DNA from: a virus
Direction: 5' to 3' (one strand)
Length of the DNA: 25,491 nt
IMG/VR virus record: IMGVR_UViG_3300013004_001933
Span: 1-25,491 of that record
Below, one piece after another: positions 3,603 through 25,491 of the stretch; position 1 is the first letter of the stretch; every line of letters begins with the position of its first letter. The notes beneath the pieces were generated by a model that saw only the letters and a list, made by a program, of their open reading frames with translations, made no database searches and was not told the origin of the DNA. Position numbers and translations under genes: made by a program.

Positions 3603-4579
3603 AAGAATCCTCCCTTGACCAACATGTCTTTGATTTGATCATCGTTCATTAATACTGTTTGAGAACTGAACTCAGAGTGGGGAAATGCTGGTAACTGTTT
3701 GTATTTGTTCTTAAGTTCTGCAGAACACTTGGTAGGAAGTATCACATAGTAATTTTCATCAAAGCAACGACTCAGCACAGCTTCGTGTTTGCTGATCAAC
3801 ATTTCGTCTAGTTTCTCCCCGGGCTTGCTGCCAATTTCTTTTATGTTCACAGTGCCATACTTGTGCATGAGCACACGGGCCACATCTCGAATGTAACAAG
3901 CCGGCATGTTCATAACAAATGTTTCACCACCGATGCTGGTTTCTGCGGCTTTGAACAACAACATGATGGCTTCCTCTAGCGTCAAGAAGAACCGAGTCAT
4001 TTGCAAATCAGTAATGGTAATAGGACCACCTGCTTTGATCTGTTCAATAAAGTACGGAATCACGCTGCCGTTGGAACCCATGACATTGCCGCCACGAATG
4101 CAAACAAACTTTGTGTGTGTGCTTAGATCATTACCTTGTATGATTAACTTTTCACCTACACTTTTGGTCATGCCATACAGGTTCAACGGCTCAACGGCTT
4201 TGTCGGTACTGACATCAATTACTTTGCTGACATGATTTTCTACAGCGGCGTTGACAATGTTGGTGGTTCCTGTGATGTTTGTTTTGATAGCTTCCTGTGG
4301 GTGATCTTCGCAGATGGGCACATGTTTAAGTGCGGCCAGATGAAATATAACGTCAACGCCCTTGGTTGCAAAACGAACAGCATCATAATCTCGAACGTCT
4401 CCTACTACAAACTTCAATCTAGAGTCATGAAACTGTCGTTGCATCAACACTTGTTGAAGTTCGCCACGGCTAAAACATATAATTTCTGTGGGATTATAAT
4501 TTGCCAACAACATACGTATTAACGTTTGTCCCCAACTGCCGGTGGCACCCGATACAAATATTCTTTTTCCGTTAAACAT
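3599..4579 (-). CDS. UDP-GlcNAc 4,6-dehydratase/5-epimerase (PseB/CapD/FnlA family SDR)
   Basis: 326 residues. The cofactor loop GATGSWG is at 11-17 and the acidic GDVRD at 60-64. HLAALKHVP (80-88) is highly typical of inverting UDP-GlcNAc dehydratases. The active site reads STDKAVEPLNLYGMTK, with Thr125, Asp126, Lys127, Tyr135 and Lys139 in the same relative spacing as the PseB catalytic residues. RGGNVMGSNGSVIPYF and the following TDLQMTRFF complete the family pattern. The expected reaction removes water across C4-C6 and inverts C5, giving a UDP-4-keto-L-sugar. A Tyr in YxxxK is closer to PseB/FlaA1; as I recall, CapE/WbjB-type enzymes have Met there. The adjacent reductase and 2-epimerase point to a UDP-L-deoxyamino sugar rather than pseudaminic acid. 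Confidence 0.85.
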   Translation of the reverse strand: MFNGKRIFVSGATGSWGQTLIRMLLANYNPTEIICFSRGELQQVLMQRQFHDSRLKFVVGDVRDYDAVRFATKGVDVIFHLAALKHVPICEDHPQEAIKTNITGTTNIVNAAVENHVSKVIDVSTDKAVEPLNLYGMTKSVGEKLIIQGNDLSTHTKFVCIRGGNVMGSNGSVIPYFIEQIKAGGPITITDLQMTRFFLTLEEAIMLLFKAAETSIGGETFVMNMPACYIRDVARVLMHKYGTVNIKEIGSKPGEKLDEMLISKHEAVLSRCFDENYYVILPTKCSAELKNKYKQLPAFPHSEFSSQTVLMNDDQIKDMLVKGGFL

Positions 4580-5648
4580 GATTTCCTAATAAAATGTTTA
4601 CCACTGTGTCACTAACGTTGGTTCTAGCATATTCAGCAGGTACTGTCCATGCACGATCAACCTGTTTCATAGATTGGTAACCAGCAACAATATTATCAAC
4701 TGCTAGACCAGTTACAATGTTTGATCCACACCAAACAGTTTCTGGGCGTTCAGTAGTGGCACGTATAGTTATAGTGGGTTTATAGAACAAACACATTTCT
4801 TCTTGTACAGTTCCTGAATCACTGATGGCCATGTAACTATTCTTTTCTAACTTTACAAAATCAAAAAACCCCATTGGTTCAGTTATTTTTATACAGTCGC
4901 TTACTGATATATCTAATTCGCGCAAACGCTGACGTGTTCGTGGATGACAACTAAACACAATTGGGCGATCTTGTGCTATGATTTCCATGGCACTAAAAAT
5001 ACTAGCCAATCTCTCCGGACTATCTACGTTCTCTGCTCTGTGTGAGGTGGCGATAATGTACTGGTTAGATTTTAATTTTAATTTTTCTAAAATATTGCTC
5101 TCATCAATTTGATCACAGTAGTAATCTAATACTTCTCTAATGGGATTGCCAGTTACAAACACACGATTGTTTTGTGCACCTTCTCGTAACAAATTTTGTC
5201 TACTGAGTTCAGTATAAGGCAAATTGATAGTGCTAATACTGTCTATTAATCTACGATTCTTTTCTTCTGGTACTGACATATCGTAACAACGATTGCCGGC
5301 TTCCATGTGATACACAGGAACTCCCATGCGTTCACAAACTATAGCACTCAATCCTGAATTGGTATCACCCAACACTAACACCGCATCAGGTTGAAATTCT
5401 GTAATGTACTGCTCTACACCAATCATAGTGGCAGCCAACTGCTGTCCAATTGTACCACGACTGTTTAGTACACAATCGGGTTGTCGCAATCCCAACTGAT
5501 CAAAGAATATATCATTGAGTGTGGCATCGTAATTTTGCCCAGTATGTAATACTCTATGTTCACTGACTTGATCTAGCTTGGGTATAATTCTAGCCAAGCG
5601 AATTATTTCCGGGCGTGTTCCTAAGATGGTTAATATCTTACGCTTCAT
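4572..5648 (-). CDS. UDP-N-acetyl hexosamine 2-epimerase (FnlC/WbjD/CapG/WecB family)
   Basis: 358 residues, close to the family length. Conserved blocks in order are ILGTRPEIIR (8-17), HTGQNYD (35-41), LGDTNSGLSA (about 93-102), HMEAGNRCYD (114-123), PEEKNRRLID, TSHRAENVD (201-209, His203), DSGTVQEE and RATTERPE. HMEAGNRC rather than HVEAGLRT is typical of the FnlC/WbjD/CapG branch, which inverts C2 of UDP-L-deoxyamino sugars, rather than WecB itself. It is the first gene of the three-gene nucleotide-sugar cassette in transcription order. It overlaps the dehydratase by 8 bases, and its last codons (TTAGGA) supply that gene's ribosome binding site. The likely final step of the pathway yields UDP-L-QuiNAc or UDP-L-FucNAc. 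Confidence 0.85.
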   Translation of the reverse strand: MKRKILTILGTRPEIIRLARIIPKLDQVSEHRVLHTGQNYDATLNDIFFDQLGLRQPDCVLNSRGTIGQQLAATMIGVEQYITEFQPDAVLVLGDTNSGLSAIVCERMGVPVYHMEAGNRCYDMSVPEEKNRRLIDSISTINLPYTELSRQNLLREGAQNNRVFVTGNPIREVLDYYCDQIDESNILEKLKLKSNQYIIATSHRAENVDSPERLASIFSAMEIIAQDRPIVFSCHPRTRQRLRELDISVSDCIKITEPMGFFDFVKLEKNSYMAISDSGTVQEEMCLFYKPTITIRATTERPETVWCGSNIVTGLAVDNIVAGYQSMKQVDRAWTVPAEYARTNVSDTVVNILLGNHV

Positions 5649-6165
5649 AATACCCTACATAATATTTCTCTAGGCTGGGCAGTTTAACCTCGACCCAGCC
5701 TGCAAAGTCATCATGTGTCCATGAACTTTTGTGTATATCAAATTGATTACCATGACTCCAAATTCGTTCGTTTTCGATATTGTGTGTATTGTCTGTCCAA
5801 ATTTCAGGTAGTGGGGTAAGTAAAAATATTTTTTTATTGACTATTTTCTTGCAATCTTCCAATAGTCGAACGCCTGCATCTTTGTTTAAGTGTTCGATAA
5901 AATCTATCATTAAAATATAATCCCAACGCTCGGTGGTAATTTCAAAGATAGGAGTAGTCTCAACATTGGCCACAATGTCTGGTTCAACCCAATCCCATGC
6001 ATCAATTGTTAACACACGACACTGTTGTTCTAGCAACGGCGATGAGTAGGCTTTGGGGCCGCACCCTATATCTAATACTGTGCTGCCAGTGGCTACACTT
6101 TCATTAATAAACTGTGACAATAAATCATTGCGACTGGCTCTTTTTCCTTTGATTTTAAATTTCAT
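5638..6165 (-). CDS. Class I SAM-dependent methyltransferase
   Basis: 175 residues. The SAM-binding motif I is VLDIGCGPKA (30-39). An acidic strand end, VLTIDAWDWVEPD, follows, then WDYILMIDFIEHL, the usual motif IV region with an aspartate at the methyl-transfer face, and a later strand KKIFLLTP. The short N-terminus and absence of a target-recognition domain point to a small-molecule or glycan methyltransferase rather than a DNA methylase. It overlaps the 2-epimerase by 11 bases and the glycosyltransferase upstream as ATGA (6162-6165). Methylation of a sugar made or transferred by its neighbours is the natural guess, but the acceptor is unknown. Confidence 0.7.
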   Translation of the reverse strand: MKFKIKGKRASRNDLLSQFINESVATGSTVLDIGCGPKAYSSPLLEQQCRVLTIDAWDWVEPDIVANVETTPIFEITTERWDYILMIDFIEHLNKDAGVRLLEDCKKIVNKKIFLLTPLPEIWTDNTHNIENERIWSHGNQFDIHKSSWTHDDFAGWVEVKLPSLEKYYVGYYEA

Positions 6166-6923
6166 TGTATACTTTCTTTATTTGGTGCATGTATTGTTCC
6201 ATCAACAGTGATGTTAAAATACAAATCTTTATTATTTTGATCAGGCTCAATGTTGTCAGGATGCCCGTAACTCTTATGGTGATATTGATGTATAACCATT
6301 GGTGTTGCTACAAATTCAAGATTGCACACTTGTTTGATTCTATATAGTATTTCTGCATCGTCCCAGTTATGTCCTGTTGCATATCTTTCATCAAATCCGT
6401 TGACTTTGATTAGATTATTTCTGGTAATGGCATTGCAAAAGTGAAATGCCACTGGACGCTCAATTTCGTGATTATACCAACGTGCTTTTTTTGATGTTGA
6501 CACTGTGGGAATTGATCCTTGCTGATGCAATACTGTAACATCTTGTTTAGTACATGCCCAGCAATGAAAACTAAGATATGTTTCATCAGTAAGATTCTTA
6601 GCAACATAATTCAACACATCTCCCATATGGCAACATTCAGGGTTTTGTATCACAATCATATCTCCGCGACTGGCACGCAGTCCTACATTATATGGAATAC
6701 ATGGATTACAATAGTCTTTTTTTGTTACTTTCTCTTTCATACGAATAATATTAAACTGTAATTGTGGAAACTCATTGGGTATACCATCTAAACTATTATC
6801 AGCATCACTGAAGTCATCTACAATGACCACTTCTACATTTTTGTACGCACTATTTGCAATAGTCTGCAATGTGAATTTTAGTTGAGGTAACCTATTATAA
6901 TAGGCCATCACTATTGATATCAT
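6162..6923 (-). CDS. Family 2 glycosyltransferase (GT-A fold)
   Basis: 253 residues. It begins with the classic GT2 start, ISIVMAYYNR, followed by VEVVIVDDFSDADNS (about 30-44), which holds the UDP-binding Asp pair. The sequence GLRASRGDMIVIQNPE occupies the DxD position, here with N-P-E in place of Asp-x-Asp, which is common in this family. GFDERYATGHNWDDAEILYRI contains the ED-like catalytic acidic segment. The C-terminal tail is short with no membrane segment, so a soluble or peripherally bound enzyme is likely. It overlaps both neighbours as ATGA. The local base composition is AT-rich compared with the phage core genes, which suggests separate acquisition. Confidence 0.8.
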   Translation of the reverse strand: MISIVMAYYNRLPQLKFTLQTIANSAYKNVEVVIVDDFSDADNSLDGIPNEFPQLQFNIIRMKEKVTKKDYCNPCIPYNVGLRASRGDMIVIQNPECCHMGDVLNYVAKNLTDETYLSFHCWACTKQDVTVLHQQGSIPTVSTSKKARWYNHEIERPVAFHFCNAITRNNLIKVNGFDERYATGHNWDDAEILYRIKQVCNLEFVATPMVIHQYHHKSYGHPDNIEPDQNNKDLYFNITVDGTIHAPNKESIQ

Positions 6924-7519
6924 ATAAACCTTATGTGCGACGTGGCGTATTTTGCCCGTTGATTGATTATTTCCACAATTTCAAAATTAGACTCTACCAA
7001 TGGTGTTCTTTCCTTGGCAAAGATTCGTAGATCCATTACAACAACAGTATTGGCGTGACTGTGCTTGAGTATCAACTCACGATATGTGCTTGCTGGATAA
7101 TGAAACCCGCAACTGACCCAACTAGTAATGACATCAAACTTAATATCCTCAGAGATATTGATATTATTACAGTCTACCAGATGATAATTTTGTGTGTTTA
7201 ATTCATCTAGTTTGTTTTGTAAAAAATCCAACTTGTAATAAAATGCAAAATTTTTAGAATCAGTGGTGTAACGTGCCTGTTGTTGTGTTCGGGCATCTTG
7301 AGCATTATCGTCGAAATCGCCATCTAGTAGATACAATTCAGTGCCGTACTTTTTATTAAACAAACGACTTTCCCAAGCAAGTCCGCATCCAATGTCTAAT
7401 ATTTTTTTAGGAGGCGTTCCTAGATAGGTATCTAATAGATCAAAGTTTTCTTGTTTATGTTGCTGATACACATCAGTGAACCATTCGTCATTGATCCAAT
7501 CTTTTTGATACAATATCAT
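6920..7519 (-). CDS. Class I SAM-dependent methyltransferase
   Basis: 199 residues. Motif I is ILDIGCGLAWESRLF (40-54), followed by the acidic LYLLDGD strand end. FDVITSWVSCGFHY is the motif IV region, and NTVVVMDLR a later core strand. The WESR and FHYP segments resemble small phage and bacterial methyltransferases found next to glycosyltransferases, but no substrate signature is visible. It overlaps the GT2 gene and the GT8-like gene by 4 bases each, so it belongs to the same translationally coupled run. Sequence identity with the 175-residue methyltransferase is limited to motif I, so this is not a recent duplication. Sugar methylation is an inference from position. Confidence 0.65.
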   Translation of the reverse strand: MILYQKDWINDEWFTDVYQQHKQENFDLLDTYLGTPPKKILDIGCGLAWESRLFNKKYGTELYLLDGDFDDNAQDARTQQQARYTTDSKNFAFYYKLDFLQNKLDELNTQNYHLVDCNNINISEDIKFDVITSWVSCGFHYPASTYRELILKHSHANTVVVMDLRIFAKERTPLVESNFEIVEIINQRAKYATSHIRFI

Positions 7520-8304
7520 TGGTACTTTCTCTGTTCTTGTTTGAATACATCAAGTTCTTTGCGTTTGCCTTTGGCAGACCATATGGCGCTTTCAGTCCGC
7601 ATGGCCCAGTCAATATAACTCATGGGTAACAGACCTTTTTGATATTTTGGCACCAGTTGATCTAGTAGAACTTGATCTAAAAACCAATATAGATCGTGTT
7701 TACCGATACTGGCACGTAAACTGTTTGCGTACTCTTGTAAAAATTCATGTGCACCAGCAGTACCATTGAACAACACAGCACCGGCCAAGTGGGTGCCATC
7801 TTTGGGTTTTTCGTACAGATAAAAATCCTTAGTGCCCAATTGATCATTGAATTGTCCGCGCACTAGCCCGTCAACATCAATACTCAAGCATCGTTGTCCT
7901 GGTTGTAGTAATTCAGCCAGTCTGACAAATCTAGTACAGGCATAGTAAGTTTGATGAATCAGTATTGATAGGTCTTGGCGGCCACGTGTTTGTCCTTTTT
8001 TAAACATTTGTCTCTGTCGATCGTTTTCAAATTGGGTTCTGGTCATCCAGTAGTCAGTTGTATGTTGAAACTCATTCTCACTGGGCTGTTCATAAGTGCA
8101 AGTTACACCTGTGCGGCTTTGACAAAAATCAATCTGATCGGGCCTAGGGTTGTATATGTGTATGTGTACTCCGTATTCTGGAGTATTGGCCAGTATACTG
8201 TTGATCAACGGCCGGGCATGCAGGTCAAAATACACTGAGTCTGCGGCAGCATAGATAAAGAATTTATTTTGATTTAACGTTCCGTTAAGTTGGGGCAATA
8301 TCAT
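7516..8304 (-). CDS. GT8-like glycosyltransferase
   Basis: About 262 residues from ATG 8304. Key blocks are FFIYAAADSVYFDLHA (15-30), YACTRFVRLAELL and CLSIDVDGLVRG, where Asp143 and Asp145 form the DxD metal site. LAGAVLFNG and YWFLDQVLLDQL follow, the usual Asp-Gln helix of this fold. WSAKGKRKE near the end stands where GT8 enzymes carry a His/Lys-Gly loop. A GTG start at 8331 would add nine residues. Neither start has a good ribosome binding site; I prefer the ATG because it leaves a 44-base divergent gap for promoters. It is the first gene of the minus-strand run that ends in the nucleotide-sugar cassette. The sugar donor is unknown. Confidence 0.65.
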   Translation of the reverse strand: MILPQLNGTLNQNKFFIYAAADSVYFDLHARPLINSILANTPEYGVHIHIYNPRPDQIDFCQSRTGVTCTYEQPSENEFQHTTDYWMTRTQFENDRQRQMFKKGQTRGRQDLSILIHQTYYACTRFVRLAELLQPGQRCLSIDVDGLVRGQFNDQLGTKDFYLYEKPKDGTHLAGAVLFNGTAGAHEFLQEYANSLRASIGKHDLYWFLDQVLLDQLVPKYQKGLLPMSYIDWAMRTESAIWSAKGKRKELDVFKQEQRKYQ

Positions 8305-8348
8305 AGTCAGATATTTAGTGAGGGAAAACACAGCCTATAACTAATACT
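8305..8348. promoter_or_regulatory. Divergent intergenic gap, candidate promoters
   Basis: This 44-base gap separates a minus-strand and a plus-strand gene and is the only divergent junction in the window, so promoters for both are expected here or just inside the genes. TATAACTA at 8336-8343 is one mismatch from the T4 late box TATAAATA, but lies only 5 bases before the plus-strand ATG, which would give an almost leaderless message. No clear Shine-Dalgarno sequence is present for either gene. Confidence 0.3.
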
Positions 8349-9182
8349 ATGAGAGTAAGTATTTTTGATCAGTATGGTGCGCTTAATAGTCCGCCGGTAT
8401 TTGCGGCTGTACGTGCAGGGCTTGACAGTCTTGGCATCAAGCACAACAACATGGACAGTTCAGCAGATGTTGCTGTTATCTGGAGCCAACTATGGCACGG
8501 ACGAATGAAGCACAATCAAGGCGTATGGGGCGCATTCCGTAATAGCAATCGTCCTGTCGTTGTAGTTGAAGTGGGCATGCTACGTCGTGGCGGCACTTGG
8601 AAATTGGGTGTTAACGGAACTGGTAACAATGCATACTATGGTGACGAGTTGATTCCAGGCCGGGCGGCGCAGTTGAGACTAGAAACCCAACCCTGGTCCA
8701 ATGCTGGTTACAACATTGTGATTGCCGCACAACGATCAGACAGTGAACAGTGGGCAGGACAGCCGCCCACTGTAGCTTGGTTAACCGAAACTGCTAACAC
8801 CATTAAAAAATACACAGACAGACCTATTGTTATACGTCCGCATCCTAGACAGCGTATCAGTAATATTCCTGGTTGTGTTATTGAGATGCCGCGGCCCATC
8901 CAAGGAACATATGATAGTTTTGATTATGATCGATGTTTGTCAACAGCATGGGCTGTGGTCAATCACAACAGTGGTCCGGGCTCACTGGCTGTATTAAACG
9001 GAGTTCCAGCATTTGTACACGCTAGTAGTTTGGCAGCACCTGTTGGCAATACAGATTTATCCGCAATCAACAATCCGTCAAGGCCAGACCGAACTGCATG
9101 GCTAGAGCGACTGGCACACACAGAATGGTACACAGAGGAAATTGCCTCGGGCCTGCCGCTCAAACGTTTATTGTTGACCTAA
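8349..9182 (+). CDS. Putative GT-B-like glycosyltransferase, copy 3 of a three-member paralogous family
   Basis: 277 residues, the shortest of the three paralogues. It shares KYTDRPIVIRPHPRQR, VVNHNSGPGSLAVLNGVPAF, NTDLSAINNPSRPDRT and WYTEEIASG with the genes at 788 and 1863. The IRPHP loop and the NHNSGPGSLA-GVPAF stretch are the clearest GT-B-like features and would sit around the donor nucleotide. The N-terminal half, from VSIFDQYGALNSPPVF onward, diverges from the other copies, as expected if the acceptor-binding half differs. The gene is isolated on the plus strand between minus-strand runs, and its last 15 bases overlap the convergent methyltransferase gene. This isolation suggests insertion or inversion of a single gene. 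The enzymatic role is inferred. Confidence 0.55.
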   Translation: MRVSIFDQYGALNSPPVFAAVRAGLDSLGIKHNNMDSSADVAVIWSQLWHGRMKHNQGVWGAFRNSNRPVVVVEVGMLRRGGTWKLGVNGTGNNAYYGDELIPGRAAQLRLETQPWSNAGYNIVIAAQRSDSEQWAGQPPTVAWLTETANTIKKYTDRPIVIRPHPRQRISNIPGCVIEMPRPIQGTYDSFDYDRCLSTAWAVVNHNSGPGSLAVLNGVPAFVHASSLAAPVGNTDLSAINNPSRPDRTAWLERLAHTEWYTEEIASGLPLKRLLLT

Positions 9183-10641: not shown

Positions 10642-10963
10642 TTTGTTTCCTTTTATCTAATTTTTCCGTATAAAGATCAGATGCACATGCAGTACAGCTT
10701 TCTTTCCTGCATATTGTATACTCGGTTAAAAACTTAAAATTTTCATCAAACAGATTTCCTAAATTGTCGTTCTTACAGGTACCTGCGTAGACTGAAAAAT
10801 CAACATCTATATAGATACTTGTAACTCCAGCGTTACAAAGCCAACCTTTCCAATGGTGCAAATCTTTATCATACAATTGATTGGCAGATATTTTAACCTC
10901 GCTGCCGTCTTTCAATTCTACTATAGCACTGCAATGAATATCCTCAGTTAGTGTAGTATTCAT
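10631..10963 (-). CDS. SPASM/twitch-like iron-sulfur domain protein, probable separated C-terminal half of the radical SAM enzyme
   Basis: 110 residues. The cysteine layout is Cys43, Cys63, Cys85, Cys90 and Cys93. The text reads WLCNAGVTSIYIDVDFSVYAGTC, then a GN-like turn (DNLGNLF), then CRKESCTAC. This is how the auxiliary-cluster domain at the C-terminus of radical SAM/SPASM proteins looks: a beta-hairpin cysteine pair, then a cysteine cluster. Here it is a separate gene that starts with ATGA on the stop of the radical SAM core gene (10960-10963). The two would give a normal-length single enzyme if joined. The product may act with the core as a two-subunit enzyme, or the split may reflect a frameshift. 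The gene is AT-rich. Confidence 0.6.
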   Translation of the reverse strand: MNTTLTEDIHCSAIVELKDGSEVKISANQLYDKDLHHWKGWLCNAGVTSIYIDVDFSVYAGTCKNDNLGNLFDENFKFLTEYTICRKESCTACASDLYTEKLDKRKQNDH

Positions 10964-11610
10964 GAAAAGTTCATTTGGTTAGTAATCTTTATCGGGAATT
11001 GATTCTTTCCTTGTCTATAATCCTTGATTGGATGTGTATAGCTAACAATTCCGTGTTTTTCTAAAAATGTTTTGTATTGCTCATTACGAGCTCGATGCCA
11101 TGATTCATCCATGATATTGACTGATACTAGACATTTATGACTTTGTGCAAACTGGTGTAGATTTAATACTAGATTAAAAAACTTTTTTTCTTTCATAAAT
11201 TCACTATGTGTAGAAAATGTAATCCAATCACAATAATCCATCATTTCCTTATAGTATGCTAGACTAGCTGTGCCATTGGTAGTGACTCCAACATTCCCTA
11301 GGTCGTGCGCAAAGCACTCATGCAACCATTTTAAAAAAGGAAGAAAATTTTTATTTAAAGTAAGTTCACCCCCTACAAATGCCAAATTATATTTGATATT
11401 TTTCCTAGGGCTAGCTGATATAATTCGATTCCACGCCGCTTGCAATTTCTCTAATGAATAATCTTTAGATGTTTTATCATGCCATTGATCTGGACAATAA
11501 CTACAATCAAAATTACACCTTGTTCCAACTAGCCAATGGATTGTAATACCCGGTGCATACTCACGTATCCGAACAATGGGATTACTGTCAGTTACTACAA
11601 TCGATTGCAT
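10960..11610 (-). CDS. Radical SAM core protein lacking its C-terminal cluster domain
   Basis: 216 residues. The radical SAM signature is CNFDCSYC (Cys32, Cys36, Cys39), which holds the 4Fe-4S cluster that cleaves SAM. FVGGELTLNKNF (78-89) supplies the GGE motif that binds SAM's amino group, and VTTNGT is the next core strand. Family members use a 5'-deoxyadenosyl radical on peptides, tRNA or small metabolites. The protein stops at about 216 residues, where SPASM enzymes continue into a cluster domain, and that domain follows as the next gene. It sits between uvsX (1-base overlap, TAATG) and the uvsY-like gene. Stretches are below 20-30% GC, much lower than uvsX, so it looks like an inserted cargo gene. 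Confidence 0.8.
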   Translation of the reverse strand: MQSIVVTDSNPIVRIREYAPGITIHWLVGTRCNFDCSYCPDQWHDKTSKDYSLEKLQAAWNRIISASPRKNIKYNLAFVGGELTLNKNFLPFLKWLHECFAHDLGNVGVTTNGTASLAYYKEMMDYCDWITFSTHSEFMKEKKFFNLVLNLHQFAQSHKCLVSVNIMDESWHRARNEQYKTFLEKHGIVSYTHPIKDYRQGKNQFPIKITNQMNFS

Positions 11611-14761: not shown

Positions 14762-16792
14762 TTATGATCTAATCATCCCGGACAGTTCTCGCAACCGGTG
14801 TAGCACATCTTCTTCTACGTCATCGAACTTTTGAAGTTTACCAGAGTGTCCGTATTGGCCTTGTAACGTTGTGGTTTCTCCCAGAGGTGGGTTGCCGGTT
14901 GTCACTGCAACTTCTTCTGCCATATTGCCTAACATTTGTTCGATCTGCTTGATCCATCCACTTACGTCACTAGATCCAATTTCTTCTACATCACCTACAA
15001 AGTCTGCAACTTCGTCAATGGCGGCTGTTACTTTTTCTGGACCGTACTTGCTCAACAAATCCGAACGTTGCATTAAAATTCTACGTGTGATAGCACTGGC
15101 CACTGGACTGTCTTCCATGCCTTCTGCCATGTCAGGCTTGGAATTATTCATTCCTGATAGTTCTTGCAAACGAGATATTGTATCCTGCTCGCCTTCGTAC
15201 ATGCTGCCGCATTCCATTAGGCCGTGTTCTGGGCAGTGTTCGCCTTCGGCAGTGTAGTTGCATGATCCATCTGTTTCTTCTTCGCCAAATGCATCTTGTG
15301 CGGCGCTGCCTAGTTTGGCACCAGTCATTGCACCACCTGGACTCTTTGTCAGTGCGGCACCACCAATGCCACCTACTATTGAGCCAAGCATGCCATCTTG
15401 TAACAACTCGTTGTTCATTCCGCCATCAACTGAATATTCTTCATCATCTTGTTCAGCTACAGGAGGGGGCGGAACTTCGGCTGGTGCTTCTGCCGGCACA
15501 GCAGGTGCTTCGGGCGCAACTGTTGGCGGGGCTAACTGTTCTGATTTGAGTGCGTCTAGCACCGGCTCAAAATCTTCAAATCCTTTGTTGGACATGTCTT
15601 TGATACGTGCAATAACCAGGTTGCGGCAATCAGCATCGGGATCTTGTTCAGCTAAATCTTGCAGTTGATCGAACAGAATATCATCACCAACTAAACTGTA
15701 CAACTGTTCTGTTGCATTGGTTGCATCTGCACCAACTGGCAACTCTTGTGACAGCAATGCAATAAGTTCTTGCTGTTGTTCTGGGGTGTTGGGTGTTGCC
15801 CAGGTGCCTTCTAATAAGTTTTCGGCCCAGGCTTCAAATATGTTTGCTTCTTTCATTGCAGTTCCTTGTTGTTGTATACGGGCCAAGATAGGCAAGGCCT
15901 GTTCAATTCGCGAATCAATTGTTTCTTGAACAAATAGTGTTTTAATGTCTTCGATGATTACATCTTGCTCGGTTATGTCGGCAGGATTCCAACTTTCAAA
16001 GTAGCTGTTGTATCCACGACTTGAAGCCAGGCCTTTAAGAGTCCGGCTCATTGTGGCATGGTACACATTGGTTTCATTCACCAGGTTGGCAGTGTCGCCT
16101 TCAAACACACGGCCATGACTGGCTCTGCGGAAACGGCTCAGCACATTGAGTTCTTCCACTATGTTGGCAATGTGCTGTCCCCGCATGTCATAGGGTCTGC
16201 CACCTTGACGCACATGCTCTACCATGGCGCGGCCACCTGCTAGGTTGCGGAATGGTAACTTGTAACGCTCGCCTTCGGCTGTTTCTAAAAATAAACTTTC
16301 AACTTGACGGAACCGTGCTTCATTCACGCCCATTGGACGCTTGTGACGTATCATTAAGCGCACAGAATCCGGACCACCGTTCCAACTCACATTCTTTGTG
16401 CCGTTCCACGATTCAAACAGGCCTTCTTTGAGTGCGGCCTGACCTTGCATGCTGTACTTGAGTCTGTTGATATTTTGACTGCCAAAAGTCATAAAATTCT
16501 TTGTGGCAAAGTTTTTAAGTTGATGCTGGAACTCATACCATTCGGTTTTGTCTTCACTGTCCATGCCGCGGCCCACATTGTCACCGCTGAATAATTCCAG
16601 TTGTTTATCATCTCCCAGCATCACAACCACTGTGCCGTAGTTGGTGCCGCCTGCACTGACAAATTCAAAACTGTAAATCTCAGCATCTTCTGCTGTGGGT
16701 GCAGGCTTGCCAGTGCTGTCTAGTATTTCTGGGTCAAAGCCGCGTGTGACCAATAGGTCAAAAAGTTGTTGTCCGGGAGTATTCTGTGCCAT
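14762..16792 (-). CDS. Large modular phage protein, probably virion-associated, of unknown function
   Basis: 676 residues. The first 400 look globular and helical. A Pro/Ala-rich linker follows (about 420-447), then a glycine-zipper stretch (GMLGSIVGGIGGAAL and on to about 500). A cysteine-rich patch CNYTAEGEHCPEHG with two further cysteine/histidine positions (about 509-530) could bind a metal. Near the C-terminus are two copies of one short motif: TISRLQELSGM (about 537-547) and VLHRLRELSGMI at the very end. A glycine zipper can insert into or pack against membranes, suggesting an ejected or entry-related protein, but this is speculative. It follows gp17 by 25 bases, and a GATAAATA box lies just upstream of the start. 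A hairpin terminator follows it. Confidence 0.6.
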   Translation of the reverse strand: MAQNTPGQQLFDLLVTRGFDPEILDSTGKPAPTAEDAEIYSFEFVSAGGTNYGTVVVMLGDDKQLELFSGDNVGRGMDSEDKTEWYEFQHQLKNFATKNFMTFGSQNINRLKYSMQGQAALKEGLFESWNGTKNVSWNGGPDSVRLMIRHKRPMGVNEARFRQVESLFLETAEGERYKLPFRNLAGGRAMVEHVRQGGRPYDMRGQHIANIVEELNVLSRFRRASHGRVFEGDTANLVNETNVYHATMSRTLKGLASSRGYNSYFESWNPADITEQDVIIEDIKTLFVQETIDSRIEQALPILARIQQQGTAMKEANIFEAWAENLLEGTWATPNTPEQQQELIALLSQELPVGADATNATEQLYSLVGDDILFDQLQDLAEQDPDADCRNLVIARIKDMSNKGFEDFEPVLDALKSEQLAPPTVAPEAPAVPAEAPAEVPPPPVAEQDDEEYSVDGGMNNELLQDGMLGSIVGGIGGAALTKSPGGAMTGAKLGSAAQDAFGEEETDGSCNYTAEGEHCPEHGLMECGSMYEGEQDTISRLQELSGMNNSKPDMAEGMEDSPVASAITRRILMQRSDLLSKYGPEKVTAAIDEVADFVGDVEEIGSSDVSGWIKQIEQMLGNMAEEVAVTTGNPPLGETTTLQGQYGHSGKLQKFDDVEEDVLHRLRELSGMIRS

Positions 16793-16817: not shown

Positions 16818-18392
16818 TTAACGTAATGTGGCAAAAAACGGCATAGGCTCTATCATTGTATCGCCAAAATCACGCATTTGCGAGTCCATTTCTGTGTGAT
16901 AGTTCTGTAGCAACTGCATCATGCGTATGGCCAACAGTGTGCCCATTACCAAGTCATCTGTTTCACCGGGTTTGGCAGCATAACTTGTTCCGTGTGCCAC
17001 AAACGTTTTGAGTTCTGATACCAGCGGAGCACTGTTGATCGACATCTTTTTGGATTCTACCAAGATCTTTAACTTGCTACAGGCTGATAACTTGCTCTTG
17101 TTTGTGGTGTTAAATCCCTTGCGGATTCTACGTGCGCCTCCGGCCACAGAGTTGTCACTTAAGAAATAGCCTTCAATGTTTTCTTCGCCAAACTCTGCAA
17201 TAGAGATCAGTGCGGCTTCGCCAATGGTGTTGTTTTCTACTGAGTAGTAAATGCTCTTGGGATCTTTAACAGTTTCGTTGATGTGTTTACACACGTCAGA
17301 TAAGATACGTATCTGTGCTGGAATAGTTGTTTTATTATGGCGCCATTCAGCCACTTGTATGGTAGTATTGGCTTCAAACACCTGTATGGCAGCAGGATCG
17401 CCGCCTGTGCCCAAACTTGGGTCCAGGGCTACAACATACAGTTTGCCAGCCTCGGGCCGTTTATACCAACGCACTTGCCCTGTTCTATACAGGGGATCTT
17501 GTTGACCTTTTAACTCAACCAAGATAGCCGGTGCAATCAGTGTTTCATCGTTGATAATAAACTCACAGCCAATTTCTCGACGGAAACGATCTGTTCCCAA
17601 CTGTGCTTCCATACTGGCGCCCCAGGCTTCATCACGGTCTGGATGCTCTTGCCAGAAACTACGGAATGCCTTGAATCCATTGATACCTAGGGGTGTTGGA
17701 TTGCCATATTCATCTTCGCACTTGTTGGCGCTTTTCCATAACAGAGCAAATTGATCTTCGTCTGAGTTTGGTGTTGATGTAATAATTGCCTTACCACCAG
17801 TTGCTAGTGTGGGGCTAATACTGGTCCAAAACTCTTTGGCAATAGTGGGCCGAACAAACGCAAACTCGTCTGCGTATAAGAGTGATATACTCATACCACG
17901 ACCAGTTGTTTCTGTGGTTGTGGCTGATATGATACGGCTTCCGTTTTCAAAGTCTATTGAGCCTTTGTTGTAACTAGTAACACCTGCACGTATGTGATCT
18001 GGGCATAGTTCGTAAGCAAAGCGTATGCGTTGCATGATCTCTTGGGCACCTGTGTACTTGTGTGCGGCAATAAGAATTGTTGAGTCTGGCACAAACATTG
18101 CATACCATAGCAAGTATCCGGCAGCACTTGTGGACTTGCCGGTTTGTCGAGGCATCATAGAGATACTGAAGCGATAATTATGATACACATTGATCAATCG
18201 TTCTTGATACTCAAATGGATGATACAACATTTTGCCTTGTGTAGGATGCTGTATATAAAAGAAATGATCTAGGAAGTATGCTGGACCTGTGACAGAGTCT
18301 GCACAGTCCATAAACTCTGTTATTTCTGCTTCCGAGAATGCTTGCCGCCGGTGCGGCGCTTTGATCAATACGCCTTCTAAACTTTTAGCCAT
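16818..18392 (-). CDS. 17: Terminase large subunit gp17 (packaging ATPase and nuclease)
   Basis: 524 residues, somewhat shorter than T4 gp17 (610). The ATPase half has Walker A MMPRQTGKSTS (79-89), Walker B SLLYADEFAFV (170-180, Asp175 and catalytic Glu176) and the coupling motif ITSTPNS (204-210). The RNase H-like nuclease half has VALDPSLGTGGD (Asp324), YYSVENN (Glu386) and ETDDLVMG (Asp479/480), the acidic triad that cuts concatemeric DNA. It pumps DNA into the prohead at the portal. Its start overlaps the SGNH-like gene by 8 bases and uses AAAGGAT, inside that gene's last codons, as ribosome binding site. The cognate small subunit is probably the gene at the right edge, 6.6 kb away rather than adjacent as in T4. 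Confidence 0.96.
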   Translation of the reverse strand: MAKSLEGVLIKAPHRRQAFSEAEITEFMDCADSVTGPAYFLDHFFYIQHPTQGKMLYHPFEYQERLINVYHNYRFSISMMPRQTGKSTSAAGYLLWYAMFVPDSTILIAAHKYTGAQEIMQRIRFAYELCPDHIRAGVTSYNKGSIDFENGSRIISATTTETTGRGMSISLLYADEFAFVRPTIAKEFWTSISPTLATGGKAIITSTPNSDEDQFALLWKSANKCEDEYGNPTPLGINGFKAFRSFWQEHPDRDEAWGASMEAQLGTDRFRREIGCEFIINDETLIAPAILVELKGQQDPLYRTGQVRWYKRPEAGKLYVVALDPSLGTGGDPAAIQVFEANTTIQVAEWRHNKTTIPAQIRILSDVCKHINETVKDPKSIYYSVENNTIGEAALISIAEFGEENIEGYFLSDNSVAGGARRIRKGFNTTNKSKLSACSKLKILVESKKMSINSAPLVSELKTFVAHGTSYAAKPGETDDLVMGTLLAIRMMQLLQNYHTEMDSQMRDFGDTMIEPMPFFATLR

Positions 18393-19128
18393 GTATATCC
18401 TTTATACTTCTCAAGTGATCAATTATTTTCGCATGTACTCGATGATGACTAGGAGGGCCTGGGTGAGTTAAATCTCTTGATAACCCCAACACAGGATTTC
18501 TAAAATCTTCAACGTCAATCACCAGTACAGGAATACCATGCTGGTGGCACACTTGTTGTATGGCCAGTTCATTGCGTTGTTTGTCAGCAATGCTGTTAGC
18601 GTCAGTAAACCACCAATCGCGAAAAACTTCCTGCACTGTAGCTACTTGAGGAAAGGCCGGAGACATCACAGTACTGACATTGTGTTGATTTATTATTTCA
18701 AATCGTTCTCTAAAAGTTGTTTGTAAAATTACAAATCTTGGTTTGATTATAGGCAACCAATAGTGAGCCAGTCTGAATGCTAGTCCATTGGATACGCCAA
18801 ACACACCAAAATTATCAACTGGAAGTGAGAGATCTTTTGAAATTCTTTCATGGTATAGCTCATCCACTGGAAGTCCGAGTCCTTGAGTAAAACTACACCC
18901 AAACACAGCAAATCCTGGCTGTGCTAGATCAATTTCTCTGGACCTGAATCCTTGAGCATTGTATCGATATTCTATCTTGTGGTCAATCCAGCCGTTCTGA
19001 GCCAACAACTCTCGCTGCCGAGTATTTTTTAAATTTTTATTGTATTCTTGTTCACTGTCAATACTGCACCACAGCAGTGTTTTGCCGGCATGCTGTTGCT
19101 GTACATGACAAGGTGCATGCTCAAACAT
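18385..19128 (-). CDS. SGNH/GDSL-hydrolase-like protein
   Basis: 247 residues. The segment YRYNAQGFRSREID leads to AVFGCSFTQGLGLP (74-87). There the GCSFTQG block fits block I of SGNH hydrolases with Ser79 as nucleophile. DNFGVFGVSNGL (105-116) is the glycine block II. DLTHPG near the C-terminus supplies the Asp219-x-x-His222 dyad. Family members are esterases and deacetylases, many acting on polysaccharide acetyl groups, so it could edit a surface glycan. The block III Asn is not obvious, so activity is not certain. It starts inside the end of the radical SAM gene (8-base overlap) and overlaps gp17 by 8 bases, so it is translated with head and packaging genes. No signal peptide is visible. 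Confidence 0.6.
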   Translation of the reverse strand: MFEHAPCHVQQQHAGKTLLWCSIDSEQEYNKNLKNTRQRELLAQNGWIDHKIEYRYNAQGFRSREIDLAQPGFAVFGCSFTQGLGLPVDELYHERISKDLSLPVDNFGVFGVSNGLAFRLAHYWLPIIKPRFVILQTTFRERFEIINQHNVSTVMSPAFPQVATVQEVFRDWWFTDANSIADKQRNELAIQQVCHQHGIPVLVIDVEDFRNPVLGLSRDLTHPGPPSHHRVHAKIIDHLRSIKDIHG

Positions 19129-20257
19129 TGGTCAACTCCGGCCATAATTTCACAAATTCTCCTAGTTTGTCAGGATGGTATTGTGTTTCAATTTCTGCAA
19201 TGTGTTGTCTAAATTTTTGCAAAATAGCAGGTTGGTCTTGTGTCACACTGTGATAGGTGTTTAATGCATTGTCAAAAAAAGATCTCTCAACAGGTGTTGC
19301 TAATCCTGTGGCGTAAAACTGTTCAATCTCTGCGGCGGCTAATTTGGCAACACCTGGGCCGTGCAAGAACGGATCAAGGTAGTCAGGTTGGAACAAGTTC
19401 TGCCACAGCACAGTTACTCCTGCTTCTTCGGCAAATTCTCGCAGTTCACAGATGCGTGTGGCATTGTAGATGTTGTATACCGCATGGATGCCGCCCCAGT
19501 GTCCAGAGTTAGCAATTAGTTTTTTGACTGCGGACAAGTTGTGTTTTAGCAACGCCCATTCACCACCATGACGCACATATTCAAATCGATCGCCAATGTT
19601 ATCAAAACTCATGCTCCACCCAACTCGGTTCCGTTGACTTAGTTTCTTAAAGATTTTGTTTTTATCTAAGTCTACACTCATGTTGGTGATCAGTGTCACA
19701 ATAGCATCCTGTGGAATAACATCAAGCAGTCGTTCATTTTCCGGCAACAGCAACGGCTCGCCACCAACCAAGGCCACTTCGTGTATGTGTTCTTGATGTT
19801 GTTCAATGAAGTCGCATACTTGTTCATAGTAAGGACGCGATCCCGATTTAAAAGGAATGCCTTTAAGGCTGGCCCACTTAGAACTGCAATATTCCATGCA
19901 GTAGTTACAACTTAGATTGCAGGTGGTGTTCCAGCGTATGTCTATAATAACAGGATAGTGATATTGTGAGCCTGCGGTGGCATAATCAAAGTTGGGATTT
20001 ACGCTGTTGTGCCAATCACGTTCAGACCGGCCACCAAGGCGTTCTGCTTGCACACAGTTGGAACAGTATTTGTGTGGCTTACCTTGTGCAATAGTACTGC
20101 GTATTTCCTGTAGCAGATCTCCGTTGAGGATTTCAATGATGTTGTTGGTGTTTAGGTTACCCAGCATGTTGGGATCACCTGCACAACAGGTTTTAACATC
20201 GCCACGTGGGTTTATATGTAGGCCACGCCAGGGTGCGGCACAGTAGAAATTCGTCAT
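19121..20257 (-). CDS. Radical SAM protein with N-terminal twitch/SPASM-like cysteine domain
   Basis: 378 residues. The radical SAM signature is CNLSCNYC (Cys113, Cys117, Cys120), followed by VALVGGEPLLLP with GGEP at 165-168. The first 70 residues hold Cys6, Cys24, Cys25, Cys65 and Cys68 in an arrangement like an auxiliary-cluster domain: CAAPWRGLHINPRGDV, then KTCC, LGNL and CSNC. In most SPASM proteins that domain is C-terminal. Here it comes first, as in a group of twitch-domain radical SAM proteins often found in phage and metagenomic genomes. The substrate is unknown; peptide or sugar modification are both possible. It sits between a secreted nuclease and an SGNH-like gene in the packaging transcript. 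A 14-base palindrome abuts its start. Confidence 0.8.
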   Translation of the reverse strand: MTNFYCAAPWRGLHINPRGDVKTCCAGDPNMLGNLNTNNIIEILNGDLLQEIRSTIAQGKPHKYCSNCVQAERLGGRSERDWHNSVNPNFDYATAGSQYHYPVIIDIRWNTTCNLSCNYCMEYCSSKWASLKGIPFKSGSRPYYEQVCDFIEQHQEHIHEVALVGGEPLLLPENERLLDVIPQDAIVTLITNMSVDLDKNKIFKKLSQRNRVGWSMSFDNIGDRFEYVRHGGEWALLKHNLSAVKKLIANSGHWGGIHAVYNIYNATRICELREFAEEAGVTVLWQNLFQPDYLDPFLHGPGVAKLAAAEIEQFYATGLATPVERSFFDNALNTYHSVTQDQPAILQKFRQHIAEIETQYHPDKLGEFVKLWPELTNV

Positions 20258-20275: not shown

Positions 20276-20713
20276 TCATTGGCACCAACTTGTTTTGGCC
20301 TCACCGTAATATTCACGTGCAAATCCATTGGCAATTAGCTGTTGACGTAGACTAACACCGTTGAGTATGACATCACCCAGCACACGGCCACCGTACTTGT
20401 CCCAGTCCATCAGCACAATCTGTCGTTTTTGACTGTTGGCAATCAGTTGTTTGGTAAATGCCGAGGCTGCTTCGCCTCTTTGTGCTTCACTGGGGCATTG
20501 TGCTCTGAAGCCTTTTTCAGGAGTGTCCACACCGTACACACGAACACTGAGTTCTGGTTTCAGTGGTGCTGGTAACCAAGTGGCAGCAATGCCCACAGTA
20601 TCGCCGTCAATCACTCTAGTGATCACAGCGTCATATACAACGCCGGGCTTTTGTTTGGGCTGTGCTAGTACTAGACAAGGCACAACAAGTAAGAGTAGGA
20701 GTAGTTGTTTCAT
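20276..20713 (-). CDS. Secreted thermonuclease (staphylococcal nuclease-like)
   Basis: 145 residues. A signal peptide is clear: MKQLLLLLLVVPCLVLAQ, positively charged then hydrophobic, with likely cleavage after Ala17 (a lipoprotein Cys at 13 is a less likely alternative). The catalytic set of SNase enzymes is present: VIDGDTV (Asp36, Asp38), RVYGVDTPE (Arg58, Asp63, Glu66) and YGGRVLGDV (Arg110). These match Arg35, Asp40, Glu43 and Arg87 of the staphylococcal enzyme with Ca2+-binding acids. The product would cut DNA or RNA in the periplasm or outside the cell. For a phage this could degrade competing DNA at entry or scavenge nucleotides. It lies between putative virion genes and a radical SAM gene. 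Confidence 0.85.
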   Translation of the reverse strand: MKQLLLLLLVVPCLVLAQPKQKPGVVYDAVITRVIDGDTVGIAATWLPAPLKPELSVRVYGVDTPEKGFRAQCPSEAQRGEAASAFTKQLIANSQKRQIVLMDWDKYGGRVLGDVILNGVSLRQQLIANGFAREYYGEAKTSWCQ

Positions 20714-21003: not shown

Positions 21004-21390
21004 TTATCGTGGATATCCTTTGAATGCTTTTACCGGGCTTTGTGTCACTACAAACGCAGGCTCGTCGCTCTTGGGTGTAGATATTAGTTTTTTGCCGCCT
21101 AGCGTGTTGGTCATTGCCAATGCTTGATCAATAACTTGTGCTATGCCGGCGTTCATACCGGCCACAACTGCATGTTCACCAAATGTTGTTTCAGCTGACC
21201 ACTCGGGCATGAATGGATTTAGATTATCTTTTATGGAGTCACTACGTGCTCGTGCAAGAGCCACGCCTACTCGATATGTTTTGTACGGGTCCGAAGAACT
21301 TAGACCGGGCAAAGTGTAGGTGTAACGCAAAGGTTCTTTGGTTTCCGGCGGAAGTTCACGTTGCTCTGCGATAAATTCGCGGGCTCTCAT
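21004..21390 (-). CDS. Putative capsid-targeted small protein with shared FKGYPR tail
   Basis: 128 residues. The N-terminus MRAREFIAE closely resembles the T4 internal-protein capsid-targeting sequence MKTYQEFIAE, including an I-x-E that matches the prohead protease cut rule. The middle (LRYTYTLPGLSSSDPYKTYR, then a helix-rich stretch with GMNAGIAQVIDQAL) is not recognised. The C-terminus SPVKAFKGYPR is nearly the same as in the next gene upstream. The two share ends but not middles, so they look like different cargo domains in one frame of tags. It overlaps its upstream neighbour as ATGA and uses AAGGGG in that gene's last codons as ribosome binding site. Packaging into the head is inferred, not shown. 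Confidence 0.6.
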   Translation of the reverse strand: MRAREFIAEQRELPPETKEPLRYTYTLPGLSSSDPYKTYRVGVALARARSDSIKDNLNPFMPEWSAETTFGEHAVVAGMNAGIAQVIDQALAMTNTLGGKKLISTPKSDEPAFVVTQSPVKAFKGYPR

Positions 21391-21758
21391 CGTGGATACC
21401 CCTTGAATCCTTGCACAGGACTTTGTTTGTTGGTTGACGTTAACTCTTGACTGCGCAGGTCTCCGTGATTAAGGTCTTGGTGTTCTGACCCCACAGCTTG
21501 GAATGCTTTTTCTATCATGTCTTGTTCAACATCAGTGTAGGGCATGGCCACATTGTAGCGTCCTGCCCAGGATTCATGATCTATTTTTGGAACAAACGTG
21601 CCATCCGTACACGCGGCAGCCATCATGACTCGATTGAGTTCATACACTCTATCGGCTAGATCTACGTCTCTAAACTTGTTGAGTCCAACAGTGGCTCGAC
21701 TTCTTCGTTGACCAATCTTGCCGGTTTGTTTCTCAATGAGAAACTCATGAGCTCTCAT
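21387..21758 (-). CDS. Putative capsid-targeted small protein with shared FKGYPR tail
   Basis: 123 residues. It starts MRAHEFLIEKQ and ends SPVQGFKGYPR, the same two end tags as the gene after it, with a different centre (KIGQRRSRATVGLNKFRDVD, then MMAAACTDGTFVPKIDHESW and a helical SEHQDLNHGDLRSQE). L-I-E at residues 7-9 would be a prohead protease site if this is a capsid-targeting leader. The IGQRRSRATVGLNKF segment is basic and could bind DNA inside the head. It begins 2 bases after the stop of the 97-residue gene. No known domain is recognised. A head or internal protein role is inferred from the leader and from the neighbours. Confidence 0.6.
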   Translation of the reverse strand: MRAHEFLIEKQTGKIGQRRSRATVGLNKFRDVDLADRVYELNRVMMAAACTDGTFVPKIDHESWAGRYNVAMPYTDVEQDMIEKAFQAVGSEHQDLNHGDLRSQELTSTNKQSPVQGFKGYPR

Positions 21759-24422: not shown

Positions 24423-25028
24423 TTATCCTTTAGGGTTGTAGCCGGTGGCTGGCTTGGGTGGGCGTTTGACGTTGGTCATTGGACTCTTGTCACCCATGGG
24501 TAAACTGTTTGTGGTCACTGCTGGAGGTGTCCGACCGCCGGCCACTGTGAAGTCACTGCGATAGGTATTTTTCAGCACTGCATGTTGATCATACGGAGCA
24601 GAGTAGTCTTTGTACAAGGCTTTCTGATCTGCATCCGGTGCAGGATATGGAGAATCCAATAGATCTTTGTTTTGTTTTTCAACGTCTGCAGTCAACTTGT
24701 CATTGCTGTCTTCATACGGCACAGTCAACATGCGCACACGATTAGGATCAATGCCCATCATTTGTGCAATCTGCTGTATCTGTGGCTCAATTGCAGGATA
24801 TCGGAATTCAACATCCATGTGTGTCACACTGTGGTTATCGAACGCAGGAAAGTCTGCTGGCCGGGCCTGAACTGGTGAAGTCTTTGGCGTGGTGATTTTA
24901 ACCACGTCAAATTGACGAAGTTTTTCTTCCAGTGCCCGAACTAAATCTTTGGGAGTATCACCCACGATTTTAATGCGGTAGTTGTATACTCTTTCGTTTT
25001 CTGACAAGTATTCTTTAAAATGTTTCAT
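24423..25028 (-). CDS. Putative head-associated protein with capsid-targeting-like leader
   Basis: 201 residues. The N-terminus MKHFKEYLSE matches the style of the T4 capsid-targeting peptide MKTYQEFIAE, with L-S-E as the possible prohead protease cut. Then comes a compact alpha/beta unit: YNYRIKIVGDTPKDLVRALEE, KLRQFDVVKI, and HMDVEFRYPAIEPQIQQIAQ followed by NRVRMLTVP. This looks like a ferredoxin-like fold. The last 80 residues are Pro/Asp/Lys-rich and probably flexible (SPYPAPDADQK through PPKPATGYNPKG). It starts 17 bases after a CATAAATA late box, with AGGGA as ribosome binding site, so it probably heads a late transcript. No named family is recognised. Confidence 0.6.
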   Translation of the reverse strand: MKHFKEYLSENERVYNYRIKIVGDTPKDLVRALEEKLRQFDVVKITTPKTSPVQARPADFPAFDNHSVTHMDVEFRYPAIEPQIQQIAQMMGIDPNRVRMLTVPYEDSNDKLTADVEKQNKDLLDSPYPAPDADQKALYKDYSAPYDQHAVLKNTYRSDFTVAGGRTPPAVTTNSLPMGDKSPMTNVKRPPKPATGYNPKG

Positions 25029-25041
25029 AATCGATCCCTAT

Positions 25042-25053
25042 ATGATATTTATG
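25042..25053 (-). promoter_or_regulatory. Late promoter candidate CATAAATATCAT
   Basis: The minus strand reads CATAAATATCAT, seven of eight bases of the T4 late box TATAAATA plus a shared downstream ATCAT-type tail. It overlaps the TAA stop of the gp16-like gene and lies 17 bases before the ATG of the next gene, with AGGGA in between as ribosome binding site. The identical 12 bases occur upstream of gp32 (14727-14738). Confidence 0.6.
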
Positions 25054-25491
25054 CTTGTTTATTCTTTTGGTCTCTTGTGCCAATAAGTCGATCCAATAAA
25101 TCGTTGCGACTCAGCACTTGCCCTTCGGCAGTTTCCACAGATTCTTCTTCATTATCGCCCGCACGTTTTTCCCGGTCCAGATCCAGTCGGGCTTTTTGCA
25201 ACTGCAACTGAATCATCTTGAGTTTCTTGTTCATCTTGGCTGTTTTAGCAGTCAATGCGTGTCCCAGCATGGCACCTGCCACTGCAAAGATTTCACTGGC
25301 ATAGCGGCTGTCGATCTGCATGCCAAGATCCATCAAATCATCAAATGTTTCTGTGGCTTTTTGTGCCAGTTCGTCCATGTCGCCATCACTGGCTTCTAGA
25401 TCACGCACACCGGGCAAGGCAGCGTCAATCTTGTCAATGGCATTGTCAATTTCAGTTATGGCATATTGCGTGGTGGCAATATCCGGCACAG
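25049..25491 (-). CDS. 16: Probable terminase small subunit gp16 (5' end cut by window edge)
   Basis: At least 147 codons are open to the window edge; a GTG at 25489 is the first visible start but the gene may begin further right. The central region, LGMQIDSRYASEIFAVAGAM followed by MNKKLKMIQLQLQKARLDL, parallels the T4 gp16 segment with R-x-x-EVFA, a following LMGQM and a long Asn/Lys-containing coiled helix. Predicted coiled coil and length near 150-165 residues also fit. The small subunit recognises the packaging site and stimulates gp17 ATPase. It is on the same strand as gp17 but 6.6 kb upstream, whereas T4 has them adjacent. An unrelated coiled-coil head protein remains possible. Confidence 0.6.
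   Translation of the reverse strand, partial: VPDIATTQYAITEIDNAIDKIDAALPGVRDLEASDGDMDELAQKATETFDDLMDLGMQIDSRYASEIFAVAGAMLGHALTAKTAKMNKKLKMIQLQLQKARLDLDREKRAGDNEEESVETAEGQVLSRNDLLDRLIGTRDQKNKQA

Follow-up and report, generated by a model that had tools for sequence, protein, structure and literature searches.

Paired genes with a T4-like leader and a conserved C-terminal tail encode probable internal head proteins of apparently uncultured T4-like jumbo phages

For protein delivery from a phage head, the textbook example is the set of internal proteins of phage T4. The products of two adjoining T4 genes, ipII and ipIII, begin with MKTYQEFIAE|A, where the bar marks the cut. According to the available text of one review, the prohead protease gp21 cuts after L/I-x-E, the IPIII leader depends mainly on residues 4 and 7 for targeting and on residues 8 and 10 for processing, and the T4 internal proteins are not highly conserved (PMC9026906). 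The accessible part of another source describes Ip1, Ip2 and Ip3 as homologous in the leader only and as blocking different GmrSD enzymes (PMC12373910). In the phiKZ-type phage SPN3US, gp53 and gp54 are diverged head paralogues with identical N-termini that contain protease motifs, as given in the available portion of PMC5694885. In the cultured jumbo phage PA5oct, the head protein gp333 starts with MKINDIITE and the head protein gp332 ends with SPLSKAPKK, and both are marked ESI-MS/MS in the sequence record.

The locus described here lies in the IMG/VR virus record IMGVR_UViG_3300013004_001933, of which positions 1 to 25,491 were analysed (25,491 nucleotides, referred to as the window). It consists of gene B (21387..21758, minus strand; 123 aa, MRAHEFLIE|K...SPVQGFKGYPR), the upstream member of the pair, and its paralogue gene A (21004..21390, minus strand; 128 aa, MRAREFIAE|Q...SPVKAFKGYPR). 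The preliminary description placed the two reading frames correctly; the strand is new, as both genes are read from the minus strand with B first, and the plus-strand reading of 21004-21758 is interrupted by stops. The stop of B overlaps the start of A by ATGA, which couples the translation of the two. The leader of B (21732..21758, minus strand) is presumably cut after E9, where L-I-E fits the L/I-x-E rule in the available text of PMC9026906, and the leader of A (21364..21390, minus strand) has EFIAE of T4 ipII and ipIII as its final five residues. The tail of A occupies 21007..21039 and that of B 21390..21422 (both minus strand), and the AAGGGG of the latter is also spaced from the start codon of A as a Shine-Dalgarno sequence would be. 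The two proteins have 6 of 9 leader residues and 9 of 11 tail residues in common.

The neighbourhood contains a terminase large subunit (16818..18392, minus strand) that is 51% identical to those of jumbo phages of the PA5oct group, and a protein weakly like the virion structural family phrog_13484 (14762-16792). A third leader-bearing protein of 201 aa, MKHFKEYLSE|N... (24423..25028, minus strand), has KSPM near its C-terminus and a weak match to phrog_14802 (virion structural; head and packaging, E=0.002), and is also found near the pair in two relatives, G007 and G002. Another upstream protein (25049-25489) matches phrog_16202, a family of unknown function (E=8e-13), and has a weaker match to the terminase small subunit family phrog_445 (E=0.005). 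Directly downstream of the pair is a putative secreted thermonuclease-like protein with a signal peptide (20276-20713, minus strand), named by reading the sequence. By the same kind of reading, a cluster at 788-9182, which includes a UDP-GlcNAc 2-epimerase-like gene at 4572-5648, resembles genes for sugar-nucleotide enzymes, glycosyltransferases and methyltransferases, and two proteins (10960-11610 and 19121-20257) are radical-SAM-like with CxxxCxxC.

The leader follows the consensus MRAxEF[ILV]xE and is variable from residue 10 onward. IPIII residues 7, 8 and 10 correspond to F6, [ILV]7 and E9 of this consensus, and the cut motifs in the window are IAE in A and LIE in B. In a set of 258 family reading frames, A3 is present in 256 and E9 in 252, both positions outside the selection pattern, while M1, R/K2 and the F-like residue 6, like S, F, G and Y of the tail, are conserved by construction. 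Position 7 is V in 52 of the 258, which departs from strict L/I-x-E. Where position 9 is A or Q, as in four members (L044, L070, L114, L300), residues 11-13 read ITE, LSE, ITE or LGE; three of these members look closely related, so there were perhaps two independent events. The strict leader is present in 244 of 260 distinct tail-bearing reading frames, and the other 16 are these four with I/L-x-E shifted downstream, seven with a second (type II) tail, L307 (MRAFEIITE), two with no start in the stretch (L263 and L290), the chimera L046, and L068. The proposal that the leader has the T4 capsid-targeting and prohead-protease form is borne out, with EFIAE identical in A and L/I-x-E fitting the rule in the available text of PMC9026906.

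Genome-wide, the leader pattern is found in 2 of 252 called T4 genes, namely ipII and ipIII, and in 7/412, 5/417, 4/310 and 6/319 genes of four relatives, where 0-0.24 would be expected from internal methionines. The pattern misses other T4 head proteins with propeptides, such as ipI and alt, and therefore its sensitivity is limited. A wider pattern found two genes in the PA5oct stretch, one with and one without a mass-spectrometry note (59 of 171 called genes have such a note). The form TATAAATA was found 0 times in the window against 0.77 expected.

The machinery that would act on such a leader is present in relatives of the window. The gp21-type protease (PF03420) and Gp23 (PF07068) are absent from the 25 kb window, but each was found in 6/6 large relatives; in a second Gp23 search, 6/14 records matched, and the eight without a match were fragments of 4-47 kb plus two records of 171 and 177 kb. 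With the cut sites placed by analogy, the propeptides of the relatives' major capsid proteins (MCPs) end KYLKE|NASAG, LLAE|SSAG or YLVE|SPTAG, and that of PA5oct FLVE|NASAG. An initial caveat had been that Gln and Lys after the cut in A and B are not the usual residues. This objection is weakened, as the MCPs of relatives have Asn or Ser there and the rule, in the available text of the review, names no residue.

A and B are like the T4 internal proteins in having a short N-terminal leader ending in F-[ILV]-x-E; both groups consist of small proteins encoded, for ipII and ipIII as for A and B, side by side, and gp21- and gp23-type genes are found in relatives of the window, as in T4. In contrast, T4 IPII and IPIII have no tail and are basic (pI 9.56 and 9.65), whereas the A family has a tail and, by its median, is not basic. 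The isoelectric points of A and B in the window are 8.94 and 8.07, and the family medians are 6.17 for mature A and other non-B members (n=160) and 8.18 for B (n=98). Because body homology was looked for by profile and the A3 profile gave nothing in T4 up to E=10, the likeness is limited to the leader format. SPN3US gp53 and gp54 resemble A and B as diverged head paralogues whose N-termini bear a protease motif, but they differ in their A-x-E motif, long propeptides and phage group, and the available portion of that paper mentions no common tail.

The search of IMG/VR turned up 173 candidate stretches coding for A relatives (80 of the 173 were taken in) and 43 loci with relatives of B, and types that bridge A and B exist. 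A bridging query gave 102 stretches (80 of 102 taken in), and a type II query gave 38, mostly on contigs already seen. Because some end peptides were among the patterns used to fetch the loci, the sampling is not wholly bias-free. Profiles made from the bodies only found 268 distinct reading frames among 7461 in the fetched loci; 254 of these have the strict leader MRAxEF[ILVMF]xE and six a type II leader, and 254 end in F.G[YF] plus at most four residues and six in N[KR]YG[VI]. The common ends first noticed in the window are therefore real and kept across the family. The sets used for comparing middles, residue conservation and end pairing were restricted to reading frames whose leader passed a lenient pattern (259, of which 258 remained once length was limited). 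The family occurs in many environmental phages and appears to belong to uncultured T4-like jumbo phages.

Twelve large contigs of 157-364 kb, all found through the family itself, each contain one A-like and one B-like gene (12/12). In one of them (G009) the bridging C type occupies the place of B. In another (G008) A and B are about 150 kb apart and a third match (E=0.9) spans the leader only; because of this distance, the tandem arrangement is dispensable. The number of tail-bearing genes per locus, over 192 loci with at least one, is one in 20 loci, two in 158, three in 12 and four in two, where a locus is a cut stretch, a contig may count more than once and L126-L220 are left out. One third copy (L046:7032-7328) is a chimera in which a signal-peptide-like start, MKKLLLTLLLVPAMALA, is followed by the C-terminal half of an A gene; that start resembles the protein downstream of A in the window.

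Named relatives were sought widely. tblastn of A and B against 50,697 named phage records gave no relative up to E=1, and a type II member gave only chance-level matches there. One degenerate pattern in genome_contigs gave 53 stretches and no confirmed relative. When five cultured jumbo phages and T4 were searched with profiles, nothing convincing emerged: the hits in PA5oct and a Vibrio phage (E 0.03-0.04) fall inside other proteins, and thus PA5oct, with its one match at E=0.03 within an unrelated protein, has no convincing A/B homologue. Its gp333 nevertheless starts like the type II leaders. A and B match nothing in Pfam and PHROGs, and their family relatives have no convincing match in them. 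No mention of FKGYPR was found in the literature searched.

The middles of the two proteins had at first been called unrelated, and the pair read as a cassette in which cargo is swapped between two fixed tags. Compared directly, the middles in the window are 20% identical and 25/500 shuffles score as high, and a shallow profile test gave a probability of 1.6%, in the same register. The trimmed middles of 113 A-type and 98 B-type proteins, when aligned by hhalign, gave a probability of 93.8% and a score of 44.4 over 103 columns, and the best of 50 column-shuffled controls reached 17.2. For the A subtype to which the window's gene belongs (60 sequences), the comparison with B gave 81.8% and a score of 34.7, against 16.9 in controls. 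In 60 distinct adjacent pairs the middles have a mean identity of 0.21, against 0.76 for the leaders and 0.75 for the tails, two values that follow in part from the selection patterns; the middle scores more than 3 sd above shuffles in 12 of the 60. The AlphaFold2 models are weak (mean pLDDT 66.4 for A and 65.5 for B) but put two helices at equivalent points of both proteins, residues 35-52 and 83-94 of A and residues 37-50 and 76-89 of B. Because the trimmed middles align over their length, A and B are, as judged from their profiles, old paralogues with diverged bodies and conserved ends, not swapped cargo, and the claim of unrelated centres does not hold. While T4 Ip1-3 have only the leader in common, A and B thus share body and tail too.

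The tail, S-P-V-x-x-F-K-G-Y-P-R, was a second element of the swapped-cargo reading. A portable tail was ruled out: with the ends removed, 259 of 260 distinct tail-bearing reading frames match the body-only profiles at E<=1e-5, so the tail was seen only on this body. The exception, L068, is a frame of 65 aa on the opposite strand and resembles a chance frame. Tail positions outside the pattern are also conserved, S-10 in 244/247 and E-8 in 246/247.

Taken together, A and B are probably a pair of proteins of the inner head or prohead core in uncultured T4-like jumbo phages, with a leader that a gp21-type protease would trim. The leader, perhaps aided by the C-terminal tail, would bind the acidic core within the prohead, the protease would then cut A and B after E9, and the mature proteins of about 13 kDa would remain in the head with the DNA. 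A structural role is favoured because the pair is conserved.

An extension of this reading is that the two ends form a two-part head-loading signal, a cleavable leader plus a tail mimicking the C-terminus of the acidic core protein encoded next to the protease, and maybe a natural module for packaging enzymes. We regard it as possible but rather doubtful. The idea comes from ends that change together over A- and B-type bodies, and from fusions. A second end type, with a MKIRELLE-like leader and SPVAKKKKNKYGV, is present on both A- and B-like bodies. Among distinct members, MRA leaders go with F.GY tails in 248 cases and with other tails in eight, and MK[IL] leaders with NKYG[VI] in six and with F.GY in none; four of those six were added by hand, and one reading frame has another start. 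In G013, a 735-aa DUF6267/cytidylyltransferase-like protein (165097-167304; L354:5097-7304, P0001) has an A/B domain fused C-terminally that lacks its own leader, matches the family profile at E=7e-10 and ends in SPVATPKRNKYGV; IESINE|A upstream of the fused domain is possibly an internal cut site. In L077 and L078, which encode the same 332-aa protein (L077:5386-6384), an unrelated domain of about 190 residues lies between a MRAKEFIVE leader and an A body with its tail. This domain has no PHROG, matches DUF3990 weakly (E=0.0017, below Pfam's cut-off), and in a further search gave a single weak match to a designed ankyrin chain. We take DUF3990 to be ADP-ribosyltransferase-like, and the fusion could possibly be a packaged enzyme. 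T4 Alt, a packaged ADP-ribosyltransferase, would be a parallel.

The simple C-terminal signal SP[VILM] shows no enrichment genome-wide (7 against 6.06 expected in G007, 4 against 4.19 in G008 and 6 against 4.64 in G002). A narrower motif, defined after the sequences had been seen, occurs 3 times in G007, 2 in G002, 2 in G008, 1 in G013 and 0 in T4, against 0.56, 0.53, 0.38, 0.67 and 0.44 expected. The three matching genes among the 412 of G007 are A, B and the acidic core protein; in G013 only the fusion protein matches, not the core protein. Imitation of the core protein is put forward as a hypothesis only, because this motif is post hoc and SP[VILM] alone is not enriched.

The preliminary description saw in A and B packaged effectors delivered with the DNA, with varied cargo on fixed tags; anti-restriction proteins would be an example of such effectors. 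The T4 precedent of Ip1, Ip2 and Ip3 speaks for such a role, as do the leaders on unrelated bodies within the same genomes, the weakly DUF3990-like domain inserted between leader and A body in L077 and L078, and the 12 tail loci with three genes and two with four, although contigs may repeat there and the third copy in L046 is chimeric. The middles, however, are homologous, the tail is confined to one body, and the 12 large contigs, found through the family, each hold one A and one B-like gene. Foldseek of the A model against the PDB gave no match, from a weak model (pLDDT 66). Selection points the same way. The middle of A against that of L003 gave dN 0.033 and dS 0.388 (dN/dS ~0.09), B against L087 gave dN 0.049 and dS 0.411 (~0.12), and B against L091 gave a ratio of ~0.11; the middle of A against L009 gave no dS. 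Purifying selection acts on A and B, and close relatives present no arms-race pattern, with which an anti-defence function is compatible. Overall, the effector reading appears improbable.

A different possibility is that A and B are prohead core or scaffold helpers that are directed to the prohead and afterwards broken down or expelled, as T4 gp67 and gp68 are, and so are absent from the virion. The acidic protein directly upstream of the protease has an SP[VLY] ending in 6/6 relatives (L201, L202, L203, L204, L205, L206), with the ends GVNTKSPV, GVNTKSPV, GVNTKSPY, GVNIRSPLPRN, GVNAKSPLPGGRKG or SSNDRSPVAK; the conserved pair, the non-basic A family and an SP[VLY] ending shared in this way with the tails would all suit helpers. 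In a Vibrio jumbo phage the corresponding core protein has the end HSTVKAYKK, which lacks SP, and in PA5oct the counterpart is gp332. Against helpers, the sharply conserved L/I-x-E sits at the leader, as in proteins that retain a mature part, and we judge this alternative unlikely.

It is very unlikely that the leader serves more generally in interaction or export, unrelated to the head, and that the proteins act elsewhere. By eye, CTS-like leaders are seen on lytic transglycosylase- and metallopeptidase-like proteins of relatives (L119, L120; G008 57107-57631; G013 31151-31552), which would fit a general motif; these proteins may equally be listed as candidate packaged enzymes. On the other side, EFIAE is identical to the T4 signal, and I/L-x-E is shifted downstream where E9 is missing. 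Moreover, a 66-aa reading frame in G007 (62030-62230), MRAQEFIKE|NASVGATSSGSVAT (in full MRAQEFIKENASVGATSSGSVAT), matches the MCP on both sides of its presumed cut, and G002 has a 65-aa counterpart (65051-65248) with the MRAxEF start and the MCP-like stretch.

Finally, the notion that the common ends are DNA-level signals, the tail encoding the next gene's Shine-Dalgarno sequence and the ATGA overlap fixing the first codons, draws on an AAAGG-type sequence upstream of the next ATG and on the ATGA overlap with the next start in 47 of 49 distinct B genes, but is scarcely credible given the tail's synonymous codon variation (all four GGN and four CCN codons in B, three GGN and four CCN in A), which implies that the protein and not only the DNA is conserved, given that the tail is retained in 7 of 53 distinct A genes that have no ATG between 6 bases upstream of the end of the stop codon and about 20 bases downstream of it, and given end values of dN 0 with dS 0.52 (A, L003), 0 with 1.29 (B, L087) and 0.078 with 1.10 (B, L091), where identity of the ends follows partly from the picking patterns. 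The first two of these observations rule out the tail as a Shine-Dalgarno sequence only.

If the probable role as internal head proteins is correct and both proteins are packaged, a conserved family of head-loaded proteins, as yet unnamed, is present in environmental jumbo phages. For each of four genomes, scanning with the leader form M[KR]..EF[ILV].E and its variants gives a small set of 4 to 7 candidate head-cargo genes. A new element is the conserved C-terminal tail, which is not described for T4 leaders in the available text of the sources and could serve as a second handle for loading proteins into capsids.
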